42,028 bases of DNA. It comes from a virus. The translations under genes and the position numbers were made by a program. The stretch lies in the IMG/VR virus record IMGVR_UViG_3300030329_004056, positions 1 through 42,028 of that record. One strand, written 5' to 3'. Positions within the stretch are counted from its first letter, which is position 1, and each line of letters begins with the position of its first letter. Positions 9,613 to 36,060 of the stretch are shown here, piece by piece. The notes below the pieces were generated by a model that did not search any database, was not told the DNA's origin, and saw only the letters and a program-made list of their open reading frames with translations.

Positions 9613-10602
9613 GTGCCTAACTCTCCAATCATAGAGATTATCGAAAAAGAATACCGTCCTAGAAGCCTTCAAGGACAGCCTCTTAAACTATTTCCCTTTC
9701 AAAAACGTATTCTGAACGAATTCTTTAAGATGGAGGGTCGAGGTAAGGCGCGCCGCCTGAAGTACACAACAATGGTGTATTCCTGTCCGAAAAAGTCTGG
9801 TAAGACTGAAATTATGGGCGCGGTGACCTACGCGTTTGCTCGGGTGTTTGGAGGGGAAATGTATTCGGTAGCAAACGATGCCGAACAAGCTGGAGCTCGA
9901 ATGTTTCAGCGAGTGGTCGAAAGTCTCAAAGCTCTACGAGAACAAGATCCTAAGACGTTCGAACAGATCATGCCCGATGATAAACGAATTCGTGATAAAA
10001 TTACTGTAAATAACGAAGTACTGTTTGAGAACAACTCGCAGCTTAATGCGGGCCCTCATACGCTTAAGTTTATTGCCAACGATTTCGCTGGGGAAGCCGG
10101 GGCAATGAATGCGTTTGTAGGATTCGATGAGCTTTGGGGTGTAAGTTCAGAGCGTGGTGAACGTTTGTGGACTGAAATGCAGCCCATTCCAAACCTAACA
10201 GCCTCGATTAGGTTTGTTACAACGTACGCAGGGTTTTATGGAGAGAGCGCGTTGTTGTGGCGGATTTATGAGAACATAGTTAAACCTGATCCCCACACCA
10301 ACGAAGAGCTTGGTACCAAGGTTCCAGGGTTAGAGGATCTTCCGGTGTATGTCTCAGACGATGGGTCTACCATTGTGTACTGGGATCACGAGGCTCGTTT
10401 GCCGTGGCATACACCGGAATTCCTCGAACAAGCCAAAAATGATCCCTCGGTGCAGGGGCGTGAGACTGAATTCCGAAGATTATGGTTCAATGAGTGGTCC
10501 TCGGGAGTAGAAGCATTTATAGATATGGAGCATGTAGATCGGGCTATCGCTCGGGGTGAGAATCTTATTAACAATATGGAACACAGCATACTCGGAGTGT
10601 AA
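9613..10602 (+). CDS. large terminase, ATPase half only
   Basis: A 329-residue DNA-packaging motor ATPase, starting with GTG; an in-frame TGA nine bases upstream limits any extension. It has a Q-like motif near residue 30 (FPFQKRIL), Walker A at 58-65 (CPKKSGKT) and Walker B with the catalytic Glu at 168-173 (FVGFDE). A coupling-type motif (FVTTYAG) follows. The protein ends at the usual linker after the ATPase domain (FNEWSSGVEAFID). A normal large terminase would continue for about 200 residues as an RNase H-fold nuclease. That part is absent here and is found instead at 27536-28189. A terminator hairpin follows directly, so the end is not a frameshift within a longer gene. Confidence 0.9.
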   Translation: MPNSPIIEIIEKEYRPRSLQGQPLKLFPFQKRILNEFFKMEGRGKARRLKYTTMVYSCPKKSGKTEIMGAVTYAFARVFGGEMYSVANDAEQAGARMFQRVVESLKALREQDPKTFEQIMPDDKRIRDKITVNNEVLFENNSQLNAGPHTLKFIANDFAGEAGAMNAFVGFDELWGVSSERGERLWTEMQPIPNLTASIRFVTTYAGFYGESALLWRIYENIVKPDPHTNEELGTKVPGLEDLPVYVSDDGSTIVYWDHEARLPWHTPEFLEQAKNDPSVQGRETEFRRLWFNEWSSGVEAFIDMEHVDRAIARGENLINNMEHSILGV

Positions 10603-12471: not shown

Positions 12472-13737
12472 TTATGGGTGAGCCTCCTTCCAAGAATCCC
12501 CAGAACCAAAGTCAGCCGGACAAATTAGCGCGTTTGAGCCGTACTTCAACGGCATAGGCAGTCCAATAGCTTCGGTCACGATATTACGGACATTGTTTAA
12601 TTCTTCTGGAAGGCACTGTCCGGCAATCTCGTCATGTGTATACAAAAGACACTCAGCCCGAACATTAAGAGTTCGAAAGGCCGCAGCAGTCGTTACCAGG
12701 GCTCTGTGCATATGATCCCCAGCGGTAGACTGCGGCAAGTGTGCTACAGCTTCACGATGCAGAGGCGAGGGTAAAGAATCAGACGCACGGGAGATAGCTA
12801 AGAATGTTCGTGGCCGTCCAAATGGCGTAACAAGAGTGCGGTTAGTTTTTAAGTGCTCTATGAGGTTTAGTCTCCAGCGTACTACACCCGGACGAAGCTT
12901 ATCCAATGCACGCAGGTGTTTAGATGCATCTCGATCAGAGTAAGCTAAATCTGGAATAGTATCGTTAATACGAGCGGCAAGCCCGTAAGGTGAAATCCAA
13001 TATCCCCAAGAATGTGTAACCAGTTTGCCAGAATCTCTGTACGAACGCTCAGAACCTGGAACTAAGTCCCGTACACCAGACTCCGGTACATCAAACATCG
13101 CCACAGCATGTTCAGTATGTACATCACGTTCATCGAGAAAGGCTTGGACATACGCATCATCCTGAGCCAACCATGCTACAACTCGCGCTTCGATCTGAGA
13201 GGCGTCTGCCGCCCAGAATACTTTACCGGGATCTGGTACAATCCAGTCTCGTTGGGACGCAGGAAAGTTTTGCATATTCGTTCCCAAGTCGAATACATCC
13301 TTGCCTGAACGTCCACGTCCTGTTTCAACCGTAAACAGTTTATAACTTGTTCGAAGTCTGCCATCGTTATGAGTCTTAGCATCCATGTAGGTTGATTTAA
13401 GTTTTCTTGCCTTACGACACTCAAGAACATGCGTGATAAAATTCGCTACATCAGGGCGACGAGCTCTAATCTTCTTAAGCGCTCGTTCATCTGCAGATCG
13501 TGCTCGAGTAGCTTTCCACGCCTTGAGTTTGTTCAAAACCTGAATTGGAGACCAGGGGTTGACTCCTTCGAGCACGGGGTCTGCTTTGAGCGTTTCAATT
13601 CTAGACTCAAACTCATCCCGACGACGAGAACGTAAAGTTTCATCTACACGCACTCCTCGGTATTCCATTCGAATAAGTTCCATCTGAGCGGGCATAACTA
13701 TCTCATCGAATAGTCTAGCGGCATTCCAAGACTTCAT
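12472..13737 (-). CDS. polA: family A DNA polymerase, polymerase domain only
   Basis: A 421-residue protein with GAGGA before the ATG. Motif A is DASQIEARVVAW (D178), motif B lies around R234, K238 and Y246, and motif C is THDEIAG (H368-D369-E370). The palm and fingers are complete, but there is no 3'-5' or 5'-3' exonuclease domain. The proofreading domain is encoded separately at 14036-15190, with a small gene between them. Together the pair resembles a phage SPO1-type polymerase (UDG-like, exonuclease, polymerase) cut in two. At the place of E. coli Pol I Phe762 (K758 plus four) there appears to be His242. This is the likely replicative polymerase. Confidence 0.9.
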   Translation of the reverse strand: MKSWNAARLFDEIVMPAQMELIRMEYRGVRVDETLRSRRRDEFESRIETLKADPVLEGVNPWSPIQVLNKLKAWKATRARSADERALKKIRARRPDVANFITHVLECRKARKLKSTYMDAKTHNDGRLRTSYKLFTVETGRGRSGKDVFDLGTNMQNFPASQRDWIVPDPGKVFWAADASQIEARVVAWLAQDDAYVQAFLDERDVHTEHAVAMFDVPESGVRDLVPGSERSYRDSGKLVTHSWGYWISPYGLAARINDTIPDLAYSDRDASKHLRALDKLRPGVVRWRLNLIEHLKTNRTLVTPFGRPRTFLAISRASDSLPSPLHREAVAHLPQSTAGDHMHRALVTTAAAFRTLNVRAECLLYTHDEIAGQCLPEELNNVRNIVTEAIGLPMPLKYGSNALICPADFGSGDSWKEAHP

Positions 13738-13740
13738 ATT

Positions 13741-14049
13741 TTAATCCTCAGATAGGAGCGTGAAGAACCCGTCATCAGTTAAATGATTGCTAAAGGCTTC
13801 TACAGCCTTGACTACAGCCTGGTTAAATGCATCGGACTTAATAATTGAATTAGCTGTGCTGGTTGCCATAATAATTTGAGGGCGCGAATCAAGTTCAGAA
13901 AGCACTGCCTTACCTCCAATACATATGATAAAATCGTACTCGTGATCGTTTGCTAGATATTGGATCAAAAGTCCATCAATACCTTCGATATTGTGAACGG
14001 TCTCTTCAGGCTCATTAAAGAATTTACTGATACGGTTATGTTCGTTCAT
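13741..14049 (-). CDS. small unknown protein inserted between exonuclease and polymerase genes
   Basis: A 102-residue acidic protein with no membrane segment. It overlaps the end of the UDG-exonuclease gene by 14 bases, and its stop lies three bases before the polymerase start. A predicted alternating strand and helix pattern includes YDFIICIGGKAVLSELD and ANSIIKSDAFNQAVVKAVEAF. It has no recognised motif. The position invites the idea of a bridging or clamp-like accessory for the split polymerase, but the sequence does not show that. Confidence 0.6.
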   Translation of the reverse strand: MNEHNRISKFFNEPEETVHNIEGIDGLLIQYLANDHEYDFIICIGGKAVLSELDSRPQIIMATSTANSIIKSDAFNQAVVKAVEAFSNHLTDDGFFTLLSED

Positions 14050-15190
14050 GTTTGGTGGCCTCTAACTCGGCGTATAATTTGTGCCCGATTTCCCAAGTCA
14101 CACAACAATCTAATCCGTTGTATGTCCACTGAGTGGCGTCATAATCGGCTGTTTCAACCTCTTTACGCATGTCTTTGAAAAACGGCTCAAGAGTGTAGAT
14201 AGATGTAAGCATTCCGAGGTCATGTGGGATTTCGGGGTACAATATCGAGTGCGCCACTGCAGTATCCAACCATACATTCGTAACAGGAATCCCCACTTGA
14301 GCCAAATGTTGTACGTCATAGTCGAGATTTTGTCCAATCTTTTTAGAGGGTCCAGAAAGCAAATCCATCAAGCGTGAAATAATCTGCTGACGTTGGAGGA
14401 TCGTCCAACCTGAAACCTCAGTGAACGGGATCACTACAGCTTCTAAAGCATTCCATGCAATTCCGGTACAAGTAATTGTATGAGCAAAGGTTTCGATATC
14501 GAACGCAATGGACTCAGGAGAAAGGCGCTCTACCTGGTCGAGAATGGACATAAGCTCGGCCCACGAACAATTTTCAGCATGATGTATAGTGCGCTTCGGA
14601 GGGCGAAATTCCGAGTCATTTACTACGGCAGCTACTCGACGAGCATCTAATTGACATAAGGCTTTGTAGTGTAAAGAGCCTCGGTCGGAGCTTATATCCT
14701 CATCCTCTTCGAACTCTTTATAACCGGTTGAACGTAGAACTGACGCGGGGTGGATCATGGGGATCACTGGAGTTCCCTCAGCTACATAAGTGTTCATTAA
14801 GATCGAACCTCGCCACTTGGATATCGTAACACGTTCGTCTTTGAGTACTCGCGCTGATCCCTTGAGAAGAAAATCTAATGCATACGGTCCCACAGCTACG
14901 ATTGCTTTTCGAGGATGTCGAAGAATCGTCGCAAGGGTTTTCGTATCGAACATACCTAGGTCATCTTCAGGGATAGTTTCCCACTTACGCCCTGGAGGCA
15001 TTTGCCAGTGAACATAAGACACAAGACAATCTGAGCGACGTAAGCCCCCGGCAGTAAGAATCTGATCGAACAGAAGTCTACCGGCTGGACCGACAAATGG
15101 TTTTCCGGATAGGTTCTCTTCGTCACCAGGGGATTCGCCCAAGATTACTATGTCAGCGTCACTAGGACCTTCGGGGGTTATGATGTTCAT
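14036..15190 (-). CDS. UDG-like domain fused to 3'-5' proofreading exonuclease
   Basis: A 384-residue two-domain protein. Residues 1-190 match family 4 uracil-DNA glycosylases: GESPGDEENLSGKPFVGPAG at 18-37 and MIHPASVLRS at 145-154. The N-terminal cysteine pair of the Fe-S forms is missing. Residues 225-384 are a DnaQ-like exonuclease with Exo I D231-I-E233, Exo II N288-x3-D292 and Exo III Y357-x3-D361. Phage SPO1 DNA polymerase has the same order joined to a polymerase; here the polymerase is a separate gene downstream. It could proofread in trans and recognise or remove uracil. Its ATG overlaps the previous stop. Confidence 0.85.
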   Translation of the reverse strand: MNIITPEGPSDADIVILGESPGDEENLSGKPFVGPAGRLLFDQILTAGGLRRSDCLVSYVHWQMPPGRKWETIPEDDLGMFDTKTLATILRHPRKAIVAVGPYALDFLLKGSARVLKDERVTISKWRGSILMNTYVAEGTPVIPMIHPASVLRSTGYKEFEEDEDISSDRGSLHYKALCQLDARRVAAVVNDSEFRPPKRTIHHAENCSWAELMSILDQVERLSPESIAFDIETFAHTITCTGIAWNALEAVVIPFTEVSGWTILQRQQIISRLMDLLSGPSKKIGQNLDYDVQHLAQVGIPVTNVWLDTAVAHSILYPEIPHDLGMLTSIYTLEPFFKDMRKEVETADYDATQWTYNGLDCCVTWEIGHKLYAELEATKHERT

Positions 15191-21247: not shown

Positions 21248-22309
21248 TTGCCTCAATCGCTTGTTACTCCTGCTTCAGAAACAGAGTCCAAAGAAGTAGA
21301 CTGGCTTTGGGAGCCCTATATACCAAGAGCCTTTGTTACTGTATCTGCGGGGCCCAAGTGGGCGGGAAAGACGTGGGCTCACTTAGCTATAGCAACGGGC
21401 TTAGCGAACGGATATGGGCTTCCTGACGGCGATACGCAAGATCCTTTGAACATTGGTTGGATATCTTCTGAAGACCCCATAGAATACGTTCTGCGCCCGC
21501 GACTAGACTCCTTAGGGGCTGACCTAAGCCGCTTCTTTCTTCGGTATGGAGCTTTGGGACTGGATACGGGGATTATCAAACGGATCGAACAAACGATCAA
21601 GGACCGTGACCTGGATCTCCTGGTCCTGGACCCGCTGATGAGTTTTCTTCCGTCCGGTAAACGTTCGATCAGTTCGGAAGATATGCGAGCAGTATTGGAC
21701 CCCCTCGGAGAGATTGCTTACAAGCATCATATGGGAGTTCTGGTGATTACTCATATTTCAAAGCAGCCTTACGGAGAAGCTTTGGATAGAATTTCAGGGT
21801 CTGGGCAAATCACTGCTCAGGCCCGTTCTGTTCTTTTGGCTGACAAAGATCCCGATAAGCCTACTGAAGAGCGCGCGAGAATACTCGTACATGCAGGAAC
21901 TAATCTTGCGCGTCCCGGTAAAGCGTGGCCGTATACTTTACCTGATGAAACCATTGGCGAAGGGTTCGAATGGGGTGAAGAGTCTTCGGATACCAGTGCT
22001 GATAGACTGTTCGGACTCGATAAAGAAGATGTAAGCGACGACCTAAAGGGAGCAAGTGCAACAGCAGCAAAGTTCTTACGTGCAGAGTGTTCGAAAGATT
22101 GGGTTGCGGCGGAGGATATCAAGATTAAGGCGGAACAAATGGGTATTTCGAAGCGCACTATCGAACGTATCGCTGGAAAGTACTGTAATCGACGACGTGC
22201 CGGAGTAGGAACAACCAAGCAGCGTGTCTATTGGCGTTGGGCTGACTCGGACAATACAGATGAATCGGCTCCAAATAACGTGGTTCCTATAACAAGTAGT
22301 AATTCTTAG
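21248..22309 (+). CDS. RepA-like (AAA_25) replicative helicase ATPase
   Basis: A 353-residue protein starting with TTG, AGGAAGAG upstream. The RecA-type core has Walker A GPKWAGKT (about residues 35-42), Walker B LLVLDPL, and VLVITHISK, as in RepA-family hexameric helicases. The last 70 residues look like a winged helix (WVAAEDIKIKAEQMGISKRT then IERIAGKY). That plan, helicase core plus DNA-binding tail, suits an initiator-helicase. Directly after it come ten iterons. No separate helicase loader or primase was found in the window. It stands alone on the + strand between two leftward blocks. Confidence 0.8.
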   Translation: MPQSLVTPASETESKEVDWLWEPYIPRAFVTVSAGPKWAGKTWAHLAIATGLANGYGLPDGDTQDPLNIGWISSEDPIEYVLRPRLDSLGADLSRFFLRYGALGLDTGIIKRIEQTIKDRDLDLLVLDPLMSFLPSGKRSISSEDMRAVLDPLGEIAYKHHMGVLVITHISKQPYGEALDRISGSGQITAQARSVLLADKDPDKPTEERARILVHAGTNLARPGKAWPYTLPDETIGEGFEWGEESSDTSADRLFGLDKEDVSDDLKGASATAAKFLRAECSKDWVAAEDIKIKAEQMGISKRTIERIAGKYCNRRRAGVGTTKQRVYWRWADSDNTDESAPNNVVPITSSNS

Positions 22310-22342: not shown

Positions 22343-22550
22343 GGCGAGTACGGCGAATACGGCGAGTACGGGGCAAAATTCCTCGTACTCGCCATTTTTG
22401 GGGCATTTCCGAACACAATTTCCCTAAGTGCATATATCTATTGAATTTTGGCGAGTACCATAGTACCCGCCGTACTCGCCTTATATGGTATGTAGTAAAA
22501 AGAGGGTCTCTCGTACTCGCCAAAAATTTCTCGTACTCGCCGTACTCGCC
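22343..22550. repeat. ori: iteron array, probable replication origin
   Basis: Ten copies of a 9-bp unit occur in 208 bp. Forward GGCGAGTAC is at 22343, 22361 and 22450, and the variant GGCGAATAC at 22352. Reverse GTACTCGCC is at 22385, 22472, 22513, 22533 and 22542, and the variant GTACCCGCC at 22463. The first three are head-to-tail without gaps. AT-rich segments lie between groups. There is no gene here. A dense, both-strand iteron set directly after a RepA-like helicase gene is the classical layout of an iteron-controlled origin. The rest of 22310-22803 holds only the TTCG repeat and a terminator. Confidence 0.75.
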
Positions 22551-22716: not shown

Positions 22717-22747
22717 TTCGTTCGGTTCGTTCGTTCGGTTCGTTCGG
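22717..22747 (+). repeat. TTCG-rich short tandem repeat
   Basis: Seven TTCG units in 31 bp form TTCGTTCGG, TTCG, TTCGTTCGG, TTCGTTCGG. The unit recurs singly just after the terminator and is frequent across 22.7-26.9 kb. It could be part of the origin region (a strand-opening or protein-binding element) or simple slippage. Confidence 0.6.
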
Positions 22748-22755
22748 ACATAAAA

Positions 22756-22789
22756 AAAACCCCTGATAAGATTTCTTATCAGGGGTTTT
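22756..22789 (-). terminator. strong intrinsic terminator of the leftward AAA+/JAMM module
   Basis: A perfect 15-bp stem (22756-22770 with 22775-22789, loop ATTT) is followed on the reverse strand by a run of T's (TTTTTTTTA when stem end and tail are counted). It lies 15 bases past the last leftward gene. On the + strand only four T's follow, so it works mainly leftward and shields the origin from transcription. Confidence 0.85.
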
Positions 22790-22803: not shown

Positions 22804-22902
22804 TTAGCGCTTGCCTTTATCCTTCCAAGCCCTGCGAAGGGACCACATAAGGACCAGCCAGCAAGCGCCCTGAATATATGGAGTCAAGCTATCGGGGTTC
22901 AT
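22804..22902 (-). CDS. 32-residue small membrane-like peptide
   Basis: This gene starts at the ATG at 22902, which overlaps the TGA of the gene before it (ATGA), and ends at TAA 22806-22804 just before the terminator. The product has a hydrophobic stretch (YIQGACWLVLMWSLRRAW, about residues 9-26) and a basic end (KDKGKR), as in single-pass small membrane proteins. The coupled start supports it. A longer start at 22911 is possible. Confidence 0.5.
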   Translation of the reverse strand: MNPDSLTPYIQGACWLVLMWSLRRAWKDKGKR

Positions 22903-23060
22903 AGCTCCCATCCCTTGTAATGAGTCGGAAGGACTTCAACGCCTTGCTGGATACGCTGCTTGTTCGTTCGGCGATTCCATCGGTGGAAGGCAGTTCGAAG
23001 CCATCGGTGGTGATTTGTGGGCTTGTTACGGGTTGCGCTGCGCTGTTCGAGAGCATGCAT
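22899..23060 (-). CDS. 53-residue basic protein
   Basis: The ATG at 23060 has AAAGG about ten bases upstream. The product is rich in Arg, His, Trp and Gln (HHRWLRTAFHRWNRRTNKQR), strongly positive, and probably binds nucleic acid. Its stop overlaps the next start by ATGA, which argues for a real two-gene pair after the JAMM gene. A hairpin (23083-23118) lies between it and that gene. Function unknown. Confidence 0.5.
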   Translation of the reverse strand: MHALEQRSATRNKPTNHHRWLRTAFHRWNRRTNKQRIQQGVEVLPTHYKGWEL

Positions 23061-23082
23061 TGTATCAGACCTTTCTTTAAGG

Positions 23083-23118
23083 GGGAGAAGGCACCTAGTT
23101 AGAAGCGCGCCTTCTCCC
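23083..23118 (-). promoter_or_regulatory. intergenic hairpin after the JAMM gene
   Basis: A perfect 10-bp stem GGGAGAAGGC (23083-23092) / GCCTTCTCCC (23109-23118) lies between the JAMM gene and the 53-residue gene. There is no T-run, so RNA processing, a 3' stability element or partial termination is more likely than full termination. Its stem resembles that at 16018-16055. Confidence 0.5.
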
Positions 23119-23127
23119 GGGTTAGAA

Positions 23128-24198
23128 TTACTCCCCTTGCAGGAAATCTTTCAAGTCCTTCAAATCTTTTTCAGACAGATCAAGCCCTTCACCTTCACCC
23201 CCTGCTCTGTCTTCTTTAGTTCCCGGGTTGCCTTCTTCGCCTTCTCCCGGGGTATCGGGGTTGTCTTCGTCGCTGTAGCTATCATAGCTGTCGCCACCTT
23301 CTCCGGGCTCTTCGCCTTCTCCGGGCTCTTCTTCGGATTCGCCACCTTCACCACCTTCTTCGGGCTTGTCGGGTTCGGGTTGCTCTTCATTATCCTTCCC
23401 GGGACCTTCGCCCTCTTCGCCCTCTTCTCCTTCTTCGCCCTCTTCCGGGTCAGCATCCCAGTCGTATTCGCTGCGCTGTTTCGAGCGCTCTTCTTCCATA
23501 ATGTCGCACCACAAGCCATCACGGGCTATAATGAGCGAAGACACCAGAGGGATACCAGCTAGCTTGCCTACATCCTGCATCCTAGCCGTAGCCTTGAAAT
23601 CGGCGCTACTGGGGGTGCAGTCAGCTACCGGGTGATTGTGGGCTAGAGCGAAGTGCTTAGCCCCGACAACGCATAGGAACTTGAAGGCTTCCCGGGGTTG
23701 TGCAATCGTCATATCTAGGGTTCCAACTGTAACTGTATGGACCCCTACAGGTTTCATATCGGGCCCGAACGCTACAGCAATAAGGTGTTCCCGATCTGTA
23801 TCTCCGATCATATGCCGGCACATTGGCTCGATATCGGCAGCGCTTGTATAAGGCTGTTCGAAGCCTTCGACTGTCGCCACCTTATCAAGGCGAACACGGT
23901 ATTCGCTCAAGTAGTCTCCAGTGATACCTTCGGTCACAAGGTCGGGGGTCCCTACACTGTCTTTAGGCGCGCTGTCGGGGGTCGGGTTAGTCAAGATAGG
24001 GTCCAGTTCGGCAGCGATCTTCTCTGCCTTCGTTCGAGCGCTATCTACCCTATCACCCGACCCGCATATCATACAGATCATACGGGCTTTCTTGTCTCCA
24101 TCGGGGTCATAGAAGGCTTTCTCGCCCTTCTCGATTGTCGCGCTGCATTGCCTACATGAGCCCTTATACTTCGTTTCGATTTCAATCAAGGCAGCCAT
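23128..24198 (-). CDS. RadC-like JAMM/MPN+ protein with zinc ribbon and acidic tail
   Basis: A 356-residue protein in three parts. Residues 10-50 hold C15-x2-C18 and C42-x2-C45, a zinc ribbon. Residues 120-235 are a RadC-type JAB domain with a complete metalloprotease motif: E137, then H187-x-H189-x7-S197-x2-D200 (LAHNHPVADCTPSSAD). Residues 245-356 are a long Glu/Gly/Pro/Asp tail with almost no hydrophobics. Bacterial RadC has no settled function; JAMM enzymes of other families cut isopeptide or peptide bonds. The acidic tail could mimic DNA or bind a basic partner. It is coupled to the VWA-like gene by TAATG, in an operon with a MoxR-like ATPase. Confidence 0.75.
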   Translation of the reverse strand: MAALIEIETKYKGSCRQCSATIEKGEKAFYDPDGDKKARMICMICGSGDRVDSARTKAEKIAAELDPILTNPTPDSAPKDSVGTPDLVTEGITGDYLSEYRVRLDKVATVEGFEQPYTSAADIEPMCRHMIGDTDREHLIAVAFGPDMKPVGVHTVTVGTLDMTIAQPREAFKFLCVVGAKHFALAHNHPVADCTPSSADFKATARMQDVGKLAGIPLVSSLIIARDGLWCDIMEEERSKQRSEYDWDADPEEGEEGEEGEEGEGPGKDNEEQPEPDKPEEGGEGGESEEEPGEGEEPGEGGDSYDSYSDEDNPDTPGEGEEGNPGTKEDRAGGEGEGLDLSEKDLKDLKDFLQGE

Positions 24199-25043
24199 TA
24201 TATCTTCTCACTTTCGCTCTGTGTTCCGTTATACTTCGACATCACATATTCGAGAGCGCTCTCGAAGGTTCGCGCTCTGCCCAACTGCGCTGCGTTATTG
24301 ATACGAATGCCATCTTCCGGGGTTTCTACAAACCCGGGGTAGCCGTAGTGACCCGTCTGATTCTTCTTAGGAAACCAGCCATCTCGTTCGAACGCTGCGA
24401 ACACTAATCGGCGAAACATACCGGGATGGATCATAGCGAAAGCCAATCGGTCTAGGTCTACCCTACGGCCAGAGCGCTTGATACGGACCCTATGAACTGT
24501 TCCCGAACCTTTTCCATCGGTCGTATCGTAAGCAGCCACAAGGTCAACGCTGTCGCCCTTACGTTCGAGGGAAGTAACAAGGGATAGAAGAGCAGCGCCG
24601 AAATTGACTTGATCTGATGCAGATACCCCACAATGGAAACAAGCTTGATAGGTGATACGAGTGGTTCGAGTTAGGGAACGAGTTCCCGGGGCTCTCTTAT
24701 GCATGCAGAAGGGGCTTCCTGAGGCATAGGCGCTAACGTTCGGGAACAAGCCATCGGGTCGCAGTTCGAAGCCCTTACGTCGGGTTTGTGCCTTCGTAGC
24801 GTTCCGAACACTTGGAAGGGCCTTCTTGATCTTCTTCAAGCCTTCGGGCCAACCTTCCCGGGCCAGTTTCAAGGTCCCTTCGTATCCTGCATCAAAATCC
24901 CAGTCATAATCGCCTGTCTGACGGCTAGACAGATGGCGCTTCTTAGCTACGAAGTCGGGGTTCGGGTCGGTGTGTTCGATTGTATCAAGAAAGCTTTCGA
25001 AATCCCGATACATATTGAGACTATCGACTTTGGTCTGGCTCAC
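24198..25043 (-). CDS. DUF7192-like / VWA-like protein partnered with the AAA+ ATPase
   Basis: A 281-residue protein. The N-terminal region includes YEGTLKLAREGWPEG (about residues 54-68). The C-terminal half has a Rossmann-like pattern, VNFGAALLSLVTSLERKGDS then VDLVAAY, and later LDRLAFAMIHPGMFRRLVFA. These resemble the phage family I know as DUF7192, whose fold is thought to be VWA-like. The classical MIDAS motif DxSxS is not visible. MoxR-type ATPases usually act on proteins together with a VWA partner, and this gene lies directly between the ATPase and the JAMM protein, overlapping both. The family name comes from memory and needs a profile search. Confidence 0.5.
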   Translation of the reverse strand: MSQTKVDSLNMYRDFESFLDTIEHTDPNPDFVAKKRHLSSRQTGDYDWDFDAGYEGTLKLAREGWPEGLKKIKKALPSVRNATKAQTRRKGFELRPDGLFPNVSAYASGSPFCMHKRAPGTRSLTRTTRITYQACFHCGVSASDQVNFGAALLSLVTSLERKGDSVDLVAAYDTTDGKGSGTVHRVRIKRSGRRVDLDRLAFAMIHPGMFRRLVFAAFERDGWFPKKNQTGHYGYPGFVETPEDGIRINNAAQLGRARTFESALEYVMSKYNGTQSESEKI

Positions 25044-26248
25044 TTTTCGCCACCTTCCCGGGTTGCCTTGATCTGTCGGGCTTCCCTACGAACCCGTCTG
25101 GCTGTCGCCTCTTCGGATGTCGGGAAACAGTAGGCCGCTTCGGCCTTCGACTGGCTAAGCCCGGCAGCGATCATATGAGCGCCTTTCAAGATAGTTCGAA
25201 GGCTGATACAGACATCGGCTTGAAGGTTTTTTGCCGCTTCCCGAATATCCCAACAGTGTTCCAGCCAGTTAGCGCCGATGTCGCCATAGCGTTCGGTCAC
25301 AAGTGAGCGCTCCATATCTAAATCGTAGCCTACTTCATAGAAGGCGAACCTGTTGAGAAGCGCCTTGTCCTGAGCCATTGCTGCCATGTAGCCATCATCA
25401 GCACCTTCGCCCACAGTGTTCGCACTCAGCATGCAGCGAAAGTCTGGGTGCTTCTTCACCAGACCATCCGGGAACGCTGCTATACCCTGCGACAGCGCCA
25501 TATGGAGCCATGCCATGGCTTGGGGGTCGGATCGGTCACAATCATCAGCCAGAAAGAGCCCACCATGCTCCCATGCATCCCGGAAGGCAGTTCGTAGCAC
25601 TTCGCCATTGTGGGGTTGGATGTATCCAGAGAAGGCCGAATCGTGTGTTACAGCGCCTGTAGCATAGAAGGGGATATCAAGGGCGTTCGCGATCTGTAAG
25701 CCTATCTCTGACTTTCCGCTTCCTGCCGGGCCATGAGCCCAGACGTGTTCGCCATTGGCGAAGAAGAGAAGAAGATCTGCGAAACACTTATGAACAGGGC
25801 CCGGGATTTCTTTGTCCTTCACTTCGGCAGGGGTCACTATCTTGACCTTGATCCGTTTAGGGGTCCCTTCGGGGGTAGGTTCGGGCTTCTGTTCGAGTGT
25901 TTCGATACGTTCGAAGATTTCGGAGAGAGCGCCGATCAAGACCTTCCCGGGGGTCTTGGGACCTTCTTCGGGGGTAGGGCTCTCTGCCTTAGGCAGCGGC
26001 ACCTTCGGAAGGTCTGGGGTCGGGGTAGGGGTCGGGGTCGGGCTTCCTAGCTTGGTTCGGCGTTCGGTCTTCAGGGTGCCTTTACGGGCCAAGCGCTGGT
26101 AGTGTGCTGGGCAGTAGCATTGCTCAGCTAAGTCTTGGGCTACTGGGTTCCCCGCTTTGGTCATGGTAGGACCCCACCGATCTGCATCCCTATCACAACC
26201 TTCGGCAGCGCATTGGGTGCCTTCTTCGACTGCTCTTCTTTGTGCCAT
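25040..26248 (-). CDS. MoxR-like AAA+ ATPase with N-terminal zinc-binding region
   Basis: A 402-residue protein. Cysteines at 13, 18, 44 and 46 plus His49 suggest a zinc knot. A Pro/Thr linker follows (residues 70-100, four PT units), then the AAA+ core: Walker A GPAGSGKS at 173-180, Walker B LFLADD at 231-236, sensor 1 Asn277 (MLSANT), and an arginine-finger candidate R300 (LLNRFAF). This matches the MoxR/dynein-related (AAA_5) group, which remodels or activates proteins with VWA-type adaptors. It is the first gene of the leftward module, with a hairpin and promoter candidate in its leader. A phage role is unknown. Confidence 0.8.
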   Translation of the reverse strand: MAQRRAVEEGTQCAAEGCDRDADRWGPTMTKAGNPVAQDLAEQCYCPAHYQRLARKGTLKTERRTKLGSPTPTPTPTPDLPKVPLPKAESPTPEEGPKTPGKVLIGALSEIFERIETLEQKPEPTPEGTPKRIKVKIVTPAEVKDKEIPGPVHKCFADLLLFFANGEHVWAHGPAGSGKSEIGLQIANALDIPFYATGAVTHDSAFSGYIQPHNGEVLRTAFRDAWEHGGLFLADDCDRSDPQAMAWLHMALSQGIAAFPDGLVKKHPDFRCMLSANTVGEGADDGYMAAMAQDKALLNRFAFYEVGYDLDMERSLVTERYGDIGANWLEHCWDIREAAKNLQADVCISLRTILKGAHMIAAGLSQSKAEAAYCFPTSEEATARRVRREARQIKATREGGEK

Positions 26249-27189: not shown

Positions 27190-27539
27190 ACCTTATTACA
27201 ACCCGAGTTAGTCCGACGAAAGAAGGACATCTAGAGCTTGGGGCGTATTATTTGATTCGGGGTCAAGGGGAGGGCTTGGAGGAGCTTCCTGCCCAGGTAT
27301 TTCGCCTCGAGACTTTAGACCGCAACTTTGCCTCTGGAACCCGTGTGTTAACCGGAACCCTCTGGTGGGCAGTGAACATAAATGGTCAGGCTCACATGGG
27401 TATGCAGCCTGGTCATTCTATCGCGCTACATCATGTAAGTATTGGTGCCGGAGGTTCGAATCTCTCATCCAAGCATGATTTTCACTTTGAACGAGTTCCT
27501 GAGCATATCGTACGTAAAGCCTTGATGGCGCTATTATGA
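27186..27539 (+). CDS. small unknown protein before the terminase nuclease
   Basis: A 117-residue protein coupled by ATGA overlaps to both neighbours. It looks beta-rich (GHLELGAYYLIRGQ, QVFRLETLDRNFASGTRVLTG, LWWAVNINGQAHMG), perhaps an SH3-like barrel, ending in a helix. Its tight coupling to the terminase nuclease gene suggests a packaging accessory, but no known family is recognised. Confidence 0.55.
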   Translation: MNLITTRVSPTKEGHLELGAYYLIRGQGEGLEELPAQVFRLETLDRNFASGTRVLTGTLWWAVNINGQAHMGMQPGHSIALHHVSIGAGGSNLSSKHDFHFERVPEHIVRKALMALL

Positions 27540-28189
27540 ATTTTAAGTCTCTCCAGGAGAAGGCAGCTGCTCCAACTGCTACTGGTAAAGGGCTTTATTC
27601 CTTTGGCAAATCTCGTCTGGACCCGGTACTTTATCTTGGACTGGACGTAGCTACCAAACGTGATACTTGCGCCCTGGTTGCTGTAACCCCTGATGAGTCG
27701 TTCGAACATTACGCTATCTGGGGGCATCGAATCTGGCACCCTCCTGTGGATCTTGTGACTCAAGTATATCCAGTCCTTCTAAAGCTCTTTACGTCCCATC
27801 CCGTTGCAGGGCTCTGGTACGATCCCTACCAAGCGGTTACGTTGGCCCAACAACTCAAGGCTGCTGGTCATGGGCACAGACTCATTGAAGTCAACCAACA
27901 GTCTATGATGACGAATGCTGCGAACACTCTACATTCGATGTTGACTGAAAATCGGTTGGCGCTACCTAATGATGATGAGTTCCGTGCACATTTCTCCTGG
28001 GCTTCTGCTAAGCAGACCGAACGAGGCTGGAGAATTATCAAGCTTGTTCAGACTAAAAAAATTGATGTTGTAATCGCATTGGCAATGGCGCTAATGGGAG
28101 CAACGTCCGAAAGTGGTCATGGATCTTATCCTGCATGGTCATCTCAACAACACGTACGTTCACCTTTTGTATTAGAGGGAATAGCATGA
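27536..28189 (+). CDS. large terminase, nuclease half only
   Basis: A 217-residue protein equal to the C-terminal RNase H-fold nuclease of phage large terminases. The catalytic acids appear as D37 (LYLGLDVATKRDT), D96 (AGLWYDPYQAVTLAQQL) and D177 (KKIDVVIALAMA). GHRIWHPP and RGWRI are also conserved-looking parts of the family. The usual N-terminal ATPase is absent; it is at 9613-10602. The break falls exactly at the domain border and the gene has its own coupled start, so this is a split gene, not a frameshift. It would cut concatemers at the start and end of packaging. Confidence 0.85.
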   Translation: MNFKSLQEKAAAPTATGKGLYSFGKSRLDPVLYLGLDVATKRDTCALVAVTPDESFEHYAIWGHRIWHPPVDLVTQVYPVLLKLFTSHPVAGLWYDPYQAVTLAQQLKAAGHGHRLIEVNQQSMMTNAANTLHSMLTENRLALPNDDEFRAHFSWASAKQTERGWRIIKLVQTKKIDVVIALAMALMGATSESGHGSYPAWSSQQHVRSPFVLEGIA

Positions 28190-35154: not shown

Positions 35155-36060
35155 ATGGCAGGCATTGAAGCTACTGCAAATTGGGAGCAGCATACAACGC
35201 TCCGAGGCATTAATGACGTTATGTTCCATAAGTGGGATGAACGTAATGCTGTCGGTCGTATGCTGTTCAATGTTGAGGATTCTAGTCAGTACCGTGAACA
35301 CACGCTGACGGTTGGTGGTATCAACCTGATGCAGCAGATCACGGAAGGTGAGCAGATCACCTACCTGAGTAACAACGAAGGCTTTCTCCAGACGTACACT
35401 CACCTTGATTATGCGAACGGCTTTCGAGTCACTCGTAGAATGTATCGTGACGAGATGTACGGTACGATTGAGAAGAGTGCTATGGAGCTTGCCTACGCTG
35501 CTGATGCGACTGAGGAAACTATTCTAGCGAATCACCTCAATCGTGCTGAGAATAGTTCGTATACGGGCGCTGACGGCGTCGAACTTTCTTCTCAGGCTCA
35601 TGTTCGTGAAGATGGTTCCACGTATTCGAACGAACTTACTTCTGCTGCGGACCTGTCCCAGACTTCTTTGGAGCAGGCTTTTATTGACTTCAGCGATTTC
35701 CGCTCCGGCGGTGGGCGTCGACTGACTATTCCTCCAAAGTACCTGGTTGTTCCTAAGGAGGAAGGTTTTAACGCTGATCGTCTTTTGGGCTCTCGTCAGA
35801 TGCCTGAGGACAACACTAATGCGATCAACCCGCTTGAGGGTAAGGTTCAGGTTGTGGTGTGGCATTATCTCACCGACGCTGATCGTACGTTCCTTATGTC
35901 GGACAAGGAACATCATTCGATGACGTTGTTTACTCGTGAAGAGCCGTGGTCTGATTATGAGTACGACTTTGATACGAGTGATTACAAGACCAAGCTATCC
36001 TTCTCGCAGAGCTCCGGTTGGGGCGACCCGAAGGGTGTTTTCTGCTTGCGTGGTGCGTAA
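35155..36060 (+). CDS. major capsid protein
   Basis: A 301-residue protein with GGGAG eight bases upstream. Segments such as DVMFHKWDERNAVGRMLF, a helix at ATEETILANHLNRAE, the beta part RLTIPPKYLVVPKEEGFNAD and the closing WGDPKGVFCLRGA are in the style of HK97-fold capsid proteins. The expected position follows portal, scaffold and decoration genes. Codons appear more uniform (many C/G-ending) than in neighbours, as expected for the most highly expressed gene. A hairpin follows the gene. Confidence 0.8.
   Translation: MAGIEATANWEQHTTLRGINDVMFHKWDERNAVGRMLFNVEDSSQYREHTLTVGGINLMQQITEGEQITYLSNNEGFLQTYTHLDYANGFRVTRRMYRDEMYGTIEKSAMELAYAADATEETILANHLNRAENSSYTGADGVELSSQAHVREDGSTYSNELTSAADLSQTSLEQAFIDFSDFRSGGGRRLTIPPKYLVVPKEEGFNADRLLGSRQMPEDNTNAINPLEGKVQVVVWHYLTDADRTFLMSDKEHHSMTLFTREEPWSDYEYDFDTSDYKTKLSFSQSSGWGDPKGVFCLRGA

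Follow-up and report, generated by a model that had tools for sequence, protein, structure and literature searches.

Organisation of the cassette

The window analysed here is the whole of IMG/VR virus record IMGVR_UViG_3300030329_004056, a marine phage sequence of 42,028 bases (positions are 1-based on the given strand). Its minus strand carries a cassette of three open reading frames (ORFs) encoding an AAA+ ATPase predicted to be of the MoxR class (gene 1), a DUF7192 protein with a predicted VWA-like fold (gene 2) and a RadC-type JAB/JAMM protein (gene 3), with overlaps of 4 and 1 nucleotides between consecutive genes (Table 1). The first two genes form a pair that is already ordinary in phages; the new element is the recurrent link of RadC to this pair. 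A sister contig, IMGVR_UViG_3300025131_000655, has the same gene order, with 94-98% identity to the window.

Table 1. Coordinates of the cassette and associated features in the window
Feature	Position	Strand	Basis
Gene 1, MoxR-class AAA+ ATPase (predicted), 402 amino acids (aa)	25040-26248	-	phrog_249, fold
Gene 2, DUF7192 / phrog_1909 protein, 281 aa, predicted VWA-like without metal-ion-dependent adhesion site (MIDAS)	24198-25043	-	
Gene 3, RadC-type JAB/JAMM protein, 356 aa	23128-24198	-	
N-terminal zinc ribbon of the JAMM protein, C15-x2-C18 ... C42-x2-C45	24064-24156	-	
RadC-like JAB domain, residues 118-228, with E137, H187, H189, S197 and D200	23515-23847	-	
Acidic Glu/Gly/Asp/Pro tail of the JAMM protein, residues 237-345	23164-23490	-	
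Possible 53-aa ORF (MHALEQ...), candidate downstream member of the transcription unit	22899-23060	-	sequence
Possible 32-aa hydrophobic ORF (MNPDSLTPYIQGACWLVLMW...), sharing an ATGA overlap with the 53-aa ORF	22804-22902	-	
Intrinsic terminator at the end of the unit	22756-22789	-	perfect 16-bp stem and T run

An earlier sequence-only reading had described three overlapping leftward genes forming their own unit, with a promoter candidate, a hairpin leader and a strong terminator. The ORF calls and the terminator agree with that description. The promoter and the leader did not hold up: the best minus-strand promoter match is only 8/12, the region has 4 promoter-like sites against 4.7 expected from shuffles (not above chance), and the leader folds with z = -1.6, a value within chance, with 18 of 200 shuffles folding equally well.

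Gene 1, a MoxR-class ATPase with an altered Walker B

Gene 1 matches phrog_249 (1.1e-36), a family whose database label, porphyrin biosynthesis, is misleading. Its AlphaFold2 model, in which residues 150-400 mostly exceed a predicted local distance difference test (pLDDT) score of 90, has AfCbbQ2 (VIA Z 21.3) and NorQ (VIA Z 21.1) as top fold matches, other AAA+ clades reaching at most 15.5. Because these two rank first, the predicted fold identifies gene 1 as a MoxR ATPase. The N-terminal third, modelled with low confidence, is Pro/Thr-rich and contains a Cys/His cluster. Short strands near residues 209-210 and 217-218 of the model are compatible with a hairpin, which may be the helix-2 insert (H2i).

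The motifs comprise Walker A (173-180), Walker B (D235-D236), sensor-1 (N277) and R300. Full Walker A/B, sensor and Arg finger had been claimed for this protein; an alignment against 55 relatives bears this out for Walker A, N277, R300 and R351, but Walker B reads LADDCD, with Asp (D236) replacing the catalytic Glu present in 55/55 relatives. The active site is thus not fully intact, failing at the Walker-B Glu only, and the assignment to the MoxR family stands on the fold and the remaining motifs. Further changes are Gln for N254, His for N249 and Ala-Ala for G289-R290, the last three positions being invariant or nearly so among the relatives. The ATPase of the sister contig carries the same Walker-B and 289-290 changes, which those of three other RadC-associated loci (L147, L257 and L391, described below) do not. 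In NorQ, the substitution E109Q abolished function (PMC9976466). Since Asp is a milder change than Gln, the cautious reading is that turnover of the gene 1 product may be reduced rather than absent.

Gene 2, a DUF7192 protein with a predicted VWA-like fold

Gene 2 belongs to Pfam family DUF7192 (2.6e-22), on which a literature search found no paper. The predicted model (pLDDT 85.5, predicted template modelling score 0.82) has the NorD VWA domain as its best match (Foldseek E value 1.9e-4, probability 1.00). The global superposition is loose, with VIA Z 8.6 and a root-mean-square deviation of 8.1 over 194 residues; lower Z values are reached by the Rea1 MIDAS domain, Ku70 and integrin I domains. 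A search of BFVD with the model returned DUF7192 proteins and then phage CobT-like VWA proteins. The way strands and helices succeed one another from residue 124 onwards, the ranking of the matches and the fact that NorD is the partner of NorQ are in agreement, and on the model gene 2 has a VWA-like fold closest to NorD. DUF7192 has been a family of unknown function; it occurs in many uncultured viruses and in phages of staphylococci, mycobacteria and rhizobia. Its members can now be interpreted as VWA partners of a MoxR ATPase.

The MIDAS motif (DxSxS-T-D) is missing, the aligned positions being Q133, C135 and H137. It is degenerate across the family, with Asp at position 133 in 15 of 78 relatives. 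The conserved motifs of DUF7192 are instead G98...G109-x-P111..M114 and H206-P-x3-R211-R. No peptidase is fused to the protein of the window.

Gene 3, a RadC-type JAMM protein

Gene 3 contains a RadC-like JAB domain (PF04002; 8.8e-21, 74.5 bits against a cut-off of 22.1) and matches the RadC structure PDB 2qlc (8.4e-13). The JAMM residues named by the sequence-only reading, E137 and H187-x-H189-x7-S197-x2-D200, are all present, as are the four cysteines of its zinc ribbon, and the E, HxH and SxxD signature is shared with the RadC family. Its "about 110 acidic residues" is instead the approximate length of the acidic stretch; the protein has 85 Asp or Glu residues, and its last 120 positions account for 49 of these. 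Gene 3 is not a full-length RadC (NF000642, TIGR00608; 67 bits against a cut-off of 180). The zinc ribbon and the acidic tail take the place of the helix-hairpin-helix N-terminus of RadC proteins, and the loop reads HNHPVA where RadC commonly has HNHPSG.

Among the RadC proteins examined, only those of the window phage and its sister contig have the acidic tail, and no relative turned up when the genome contig collection was searched with the JAMM protein. The idea that the tail belongs to the module in general was rejected, the tail being seen elsewhere in few proteins, such as the AAA protein of MW202803. A role as MIDAS ligand is also unlikely, as the VWA protein has no MIDAS. The RadC family has been without a role since its DNA-repair assignment came into question; PMC11981726 refers to a paper on RadC with the words "a misleading name?".

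The ATPase-DUF7192 pair is a widespread phage module

Alignments of the DUF7192 and AAA proteins showed too little conservation to serve in scans of the sequence collections. The pair was surveyed in 241 loci holding both an AAA and a DUF7192 gene. The two are adjacent on one strand in 235 of them, with a median gap of 2 nucleotides. Carriers include Kayvirus Sb-1, Gordonia phage Octobien14, Sinorhizobium phage phiM5, Tunturi_4 and bacterial contigs. The MoxR-VWA pair is therefore a widespread and common phage module, and both the predicted fold and the near-universal adjacency back the earlier proposal of a MoxR ATPase with a VWA partner. The same proposal held that the combination is not a standard replication or virion set; this is right for the three genes together and wrong for the pair.

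The genes behind the pair are diverse, 154 proteins falling into 125 clusters. The most frequent Pfam match at this place is RadC, with only three members, one of them added by hand.

Two genomes have two DUF7192 genes each: Mycobacterium phage Lolly9 (L006; 1257-2084 and 4947-5807) and an IMG/VR contig (L212; 4661-5467 and 5561-6409). A group of related elements (L147, L257, L258 and L260-L265), several on Planctomycetota or Lentisphaerae contigs, has a common gene set around the MoxR-DUF7192 pair that includes a clamp-loader-like AAA gene; several of their DUF7192 proteins have an N-terminal zinc ribbon.

RadC recurs behind the pair

Four lineages have RadC immediately behind the pair and on the same strand: that of the window, L147, L257 (a Lentisphaerae metagenome-assembled genome) and L391. 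RadC is found in none of 49 other module-bearing records, so that it is dispensable to the module and not a core part of it, and the idea of RadC as its fixed third gene was rejected. Co-occurrence in other phages, which had been suggested as a check, is thus near-universal as adjacency for the pair and limited to four lineages for RadC.

When about 100 RadC-bearing virus records were searched over their whole length, the window lineage excluded, DUF7192 was found in two, adjoining RadC both times. Assuming about 60 genes per phage, the two genes would lie side by side in this order and orientation by chance in about 1 of 120 viruses; applied only to the two further viruses and not to the window, this figure would give about 7e-5.

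The approximately unbiased test rejected a single clade both of the ATPases (p-AU 3e-34) and of the RadC domains (p-AU 0.002) from the four lineages, and each tree has four state changes. Gain and loss are formally indistinguishable on these trees. Repeated gain of RadC is nevertheless favoured, because in a large FastTree phylogeny each of the four RadCs clusters with cassette-free RadC proteins, a placement weakened by an alignment of about 120 columns and by the long branches of the window rows. L147, L257 and L391 have some flanking gene families in common, so that, counted cautiously, RadC was recruited independently two to four times. An apparent DUF7192-RadC fusion in L147 is not real: the genes are separate, and the 528-aa open frame is an upstream extension of the RadC frame that overlaps DUF7192.

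A strict zinc-ribbon pattern, defined after examples had been seen, occurs at the N-terminus of 4 of 219 AAA proteins, 4 of 215 DUF7192 proteins and the RadC of the window, against 1 of 2,337 other ORFs. A pattern common to the subunits is suggestive of a link between them.

These results bear on the alternative that fares best, in which RadC is a passenger, an independent gene of the same unit with its own role, and the pair works without it. It would account for the 49 records without RadC and for the variety of genes behind the pair, among which RadC ranks first with so few members. On the other side, both unrelated virus records with the two families have them adjacent in the same order, the metagenome-assembled locus repeats that order, one such adjacency is already rare by chance, and the zinc ribbon recurs in the other subunits. 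We consider a passenger unlikely, though of appreciable weight. Recruitment in four lineages supports a functional tie of the pair to the JAMM protein, and the repeated capture of RadC beside a remodelling pair offers a concrete, testable partner for RadC.

A probable remodelling pair with a proposed processing subunit

The explanation we favour, with a probability of about 0.6, is that genes 1 and 2 form a MoxR-VWA remodelling pair to which gene 3 adds a RadC/JAMM processing subunit, probably not for virion assembly. The pair would operate like NorQ-NorD or CbbQ-CbbO, which are likewise encoded by adjacent genes for one small MoxR ATPase and one VWA protein, and which provide the top predicted-fold matches of both proteins. 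In NorQD, the VWA protein puts a finger into the pore of the ring, and ATP turnover twists it against the client (PMC13036017). The AAA+ protein of the window would similarly form a hexameric ring on which the DUF7192 protein docks, ATP turnover driving the latter against a client protein; the conserved G98-x10-G-x-P-x2-M motif ahead of the VWA core is a possible pore finger. The RadC-family protein would be a third component added in the window phage. The zinc ribbon and the acidic tail would anchor it to the complex or to the client, and the client exposed by the ring would be processed at the JAMM site.

There are differences from these model systems. DUF7192 has neither the MIDAS nor the separate N-terminal domain and long linker of NorD, Asp replaces the Walker-B Glu in the ATPase of the window, and RadC has no counterpart in NorQD or CbbQO. 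With the Walker-B Glu replaced and the MIDAS gone, the ring of the window lineage probably turns over slowly, or has become more of a clamp or scaffold that holds the JAMM protein. The loss of the MIDAS and of the Glu at the position of the NorQ mutation also weighs against the proposed mechanism, together with the 49 records without RadC, the limits of the RadC tree and the late definition of the ribbon pattern. RadC domains are common, and to our knowledge their peptidase activity is unproven, which counts on the same side.

Tentatively, RadC JAMM proteins may be recurrent accessory enzymes of MoxR-VWA machines in phages and mobile elements, cutting the client that is remodelled, while the ring of the window would have lost rapid ATP turnover and serve the JAMM subunit as a scaffold. 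If true, this would be the first functional context for the RadC family, which its recurrent placement would tie to ATP-driven protein remodelling.

On the minus strand, genes neighbouring the cassette encode DNA polymerase, methyltransferase, Sak4-like and exonuclease proteins. As the cassette adjoins this replication block, its position suggests action in the early or middle phase and not in virion assembly. An assembly role, with the peptidase trimming a structural protein that the ring remodels, has precedents: it was proposed for the MoxR and vWA-metallopeptidase pairs of jumbo phages (PMC7824862), and that paper cites an archaeal virus whose tail assembly depends on a MoxR-vWA system. 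The jumbo phage group 2.2 pair also couples a phage MoxR-VWA system to a metallopeptidase-type domain, but there the peptidase is fused N-terminally to the vWA domain, whereas the window has a separate JAB-fold RadC gene, a VWA protein of the DUF7192 family and a replication-side location. The structural genes of the window are on the plus strand, apart from the cassette; Kayvirus Sb-1 and Octobien14 hold the pair in non-structural regions; and matches to head-maturation protease and major-head families are already found in the head gene at 35155-36060. Virion assembly is accordingly improbable.

Slightly less probable still is a counter-defence deconjugase, in which the JAMM protein, assisted by the MoxR ring, strips ubiquitin-like conjugates of bacterial defence systems. 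The intact JAMM residues are consistent with it. MoxR-vWA ternary conflict systems also combine MoxR, VWA and a third component, and JAB peptidases occur beside those of the FtsH type with genes for conjugation of ubiquitin-like proteins (PMC7159879). However, no VMAP, iSTAND or FtsH component was seen, the cassette showed no ubiquitin-like, E1 or E2 genes, PADLOC gave no match for the trio at an E value of 0.01, and RadC is a separate JAB branch without demonstrated deconjugase activity. The ATPase and VWA protein of the window lineage moreover do not have residues required by NorQD. The suggestion that the trio cuts a host defence conjugate thus found no direct evidence.

Metal insertion, as by a CobST-like cobaltochelatase, is very improbable: the phrog_249 label, the cobST pairs of other tailed viruses (PMC8651126), which likewise join an AAA protein to a VWA-type partner and whose CobT-like proteins are distant fold matches of DUF7192, and the insertion of iron by NorQD (PMC13036017) speak for it, but CobT retains the MIDAS that the shorter DUF7192 proteins lack, and NorQ and CbbQ rank first in the fold search.

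Other features of the window

In the interval from an AAA_25 (RepA-like) gene (21248-22309) to the cassette terminator, positions 22343-22550 contain eight copies of GGCGAGTAC in both orientations, against 0.2 expected; the array looks like iterons or an operator array. Tandem repeats of TTCGTTCGGTTCG adjoin the terminator at 22717-22747. The large terminase is apparently split into two plus-strand genes 17 kb apart (9613-10602 and 27536-28189), the ATPase half matching phrog_9 positions 189-331 and 432-472 and the nuclease half 482-666; in the sister contig, too, the nuclease gene has an ORF of its own. The DNA polymerase is likewise found in two minus-strand ORFs (12472-13737 and 14036-15190), which match phrog_17 positions 476-832 and 838-1234, with a 102-aa ORF in between.

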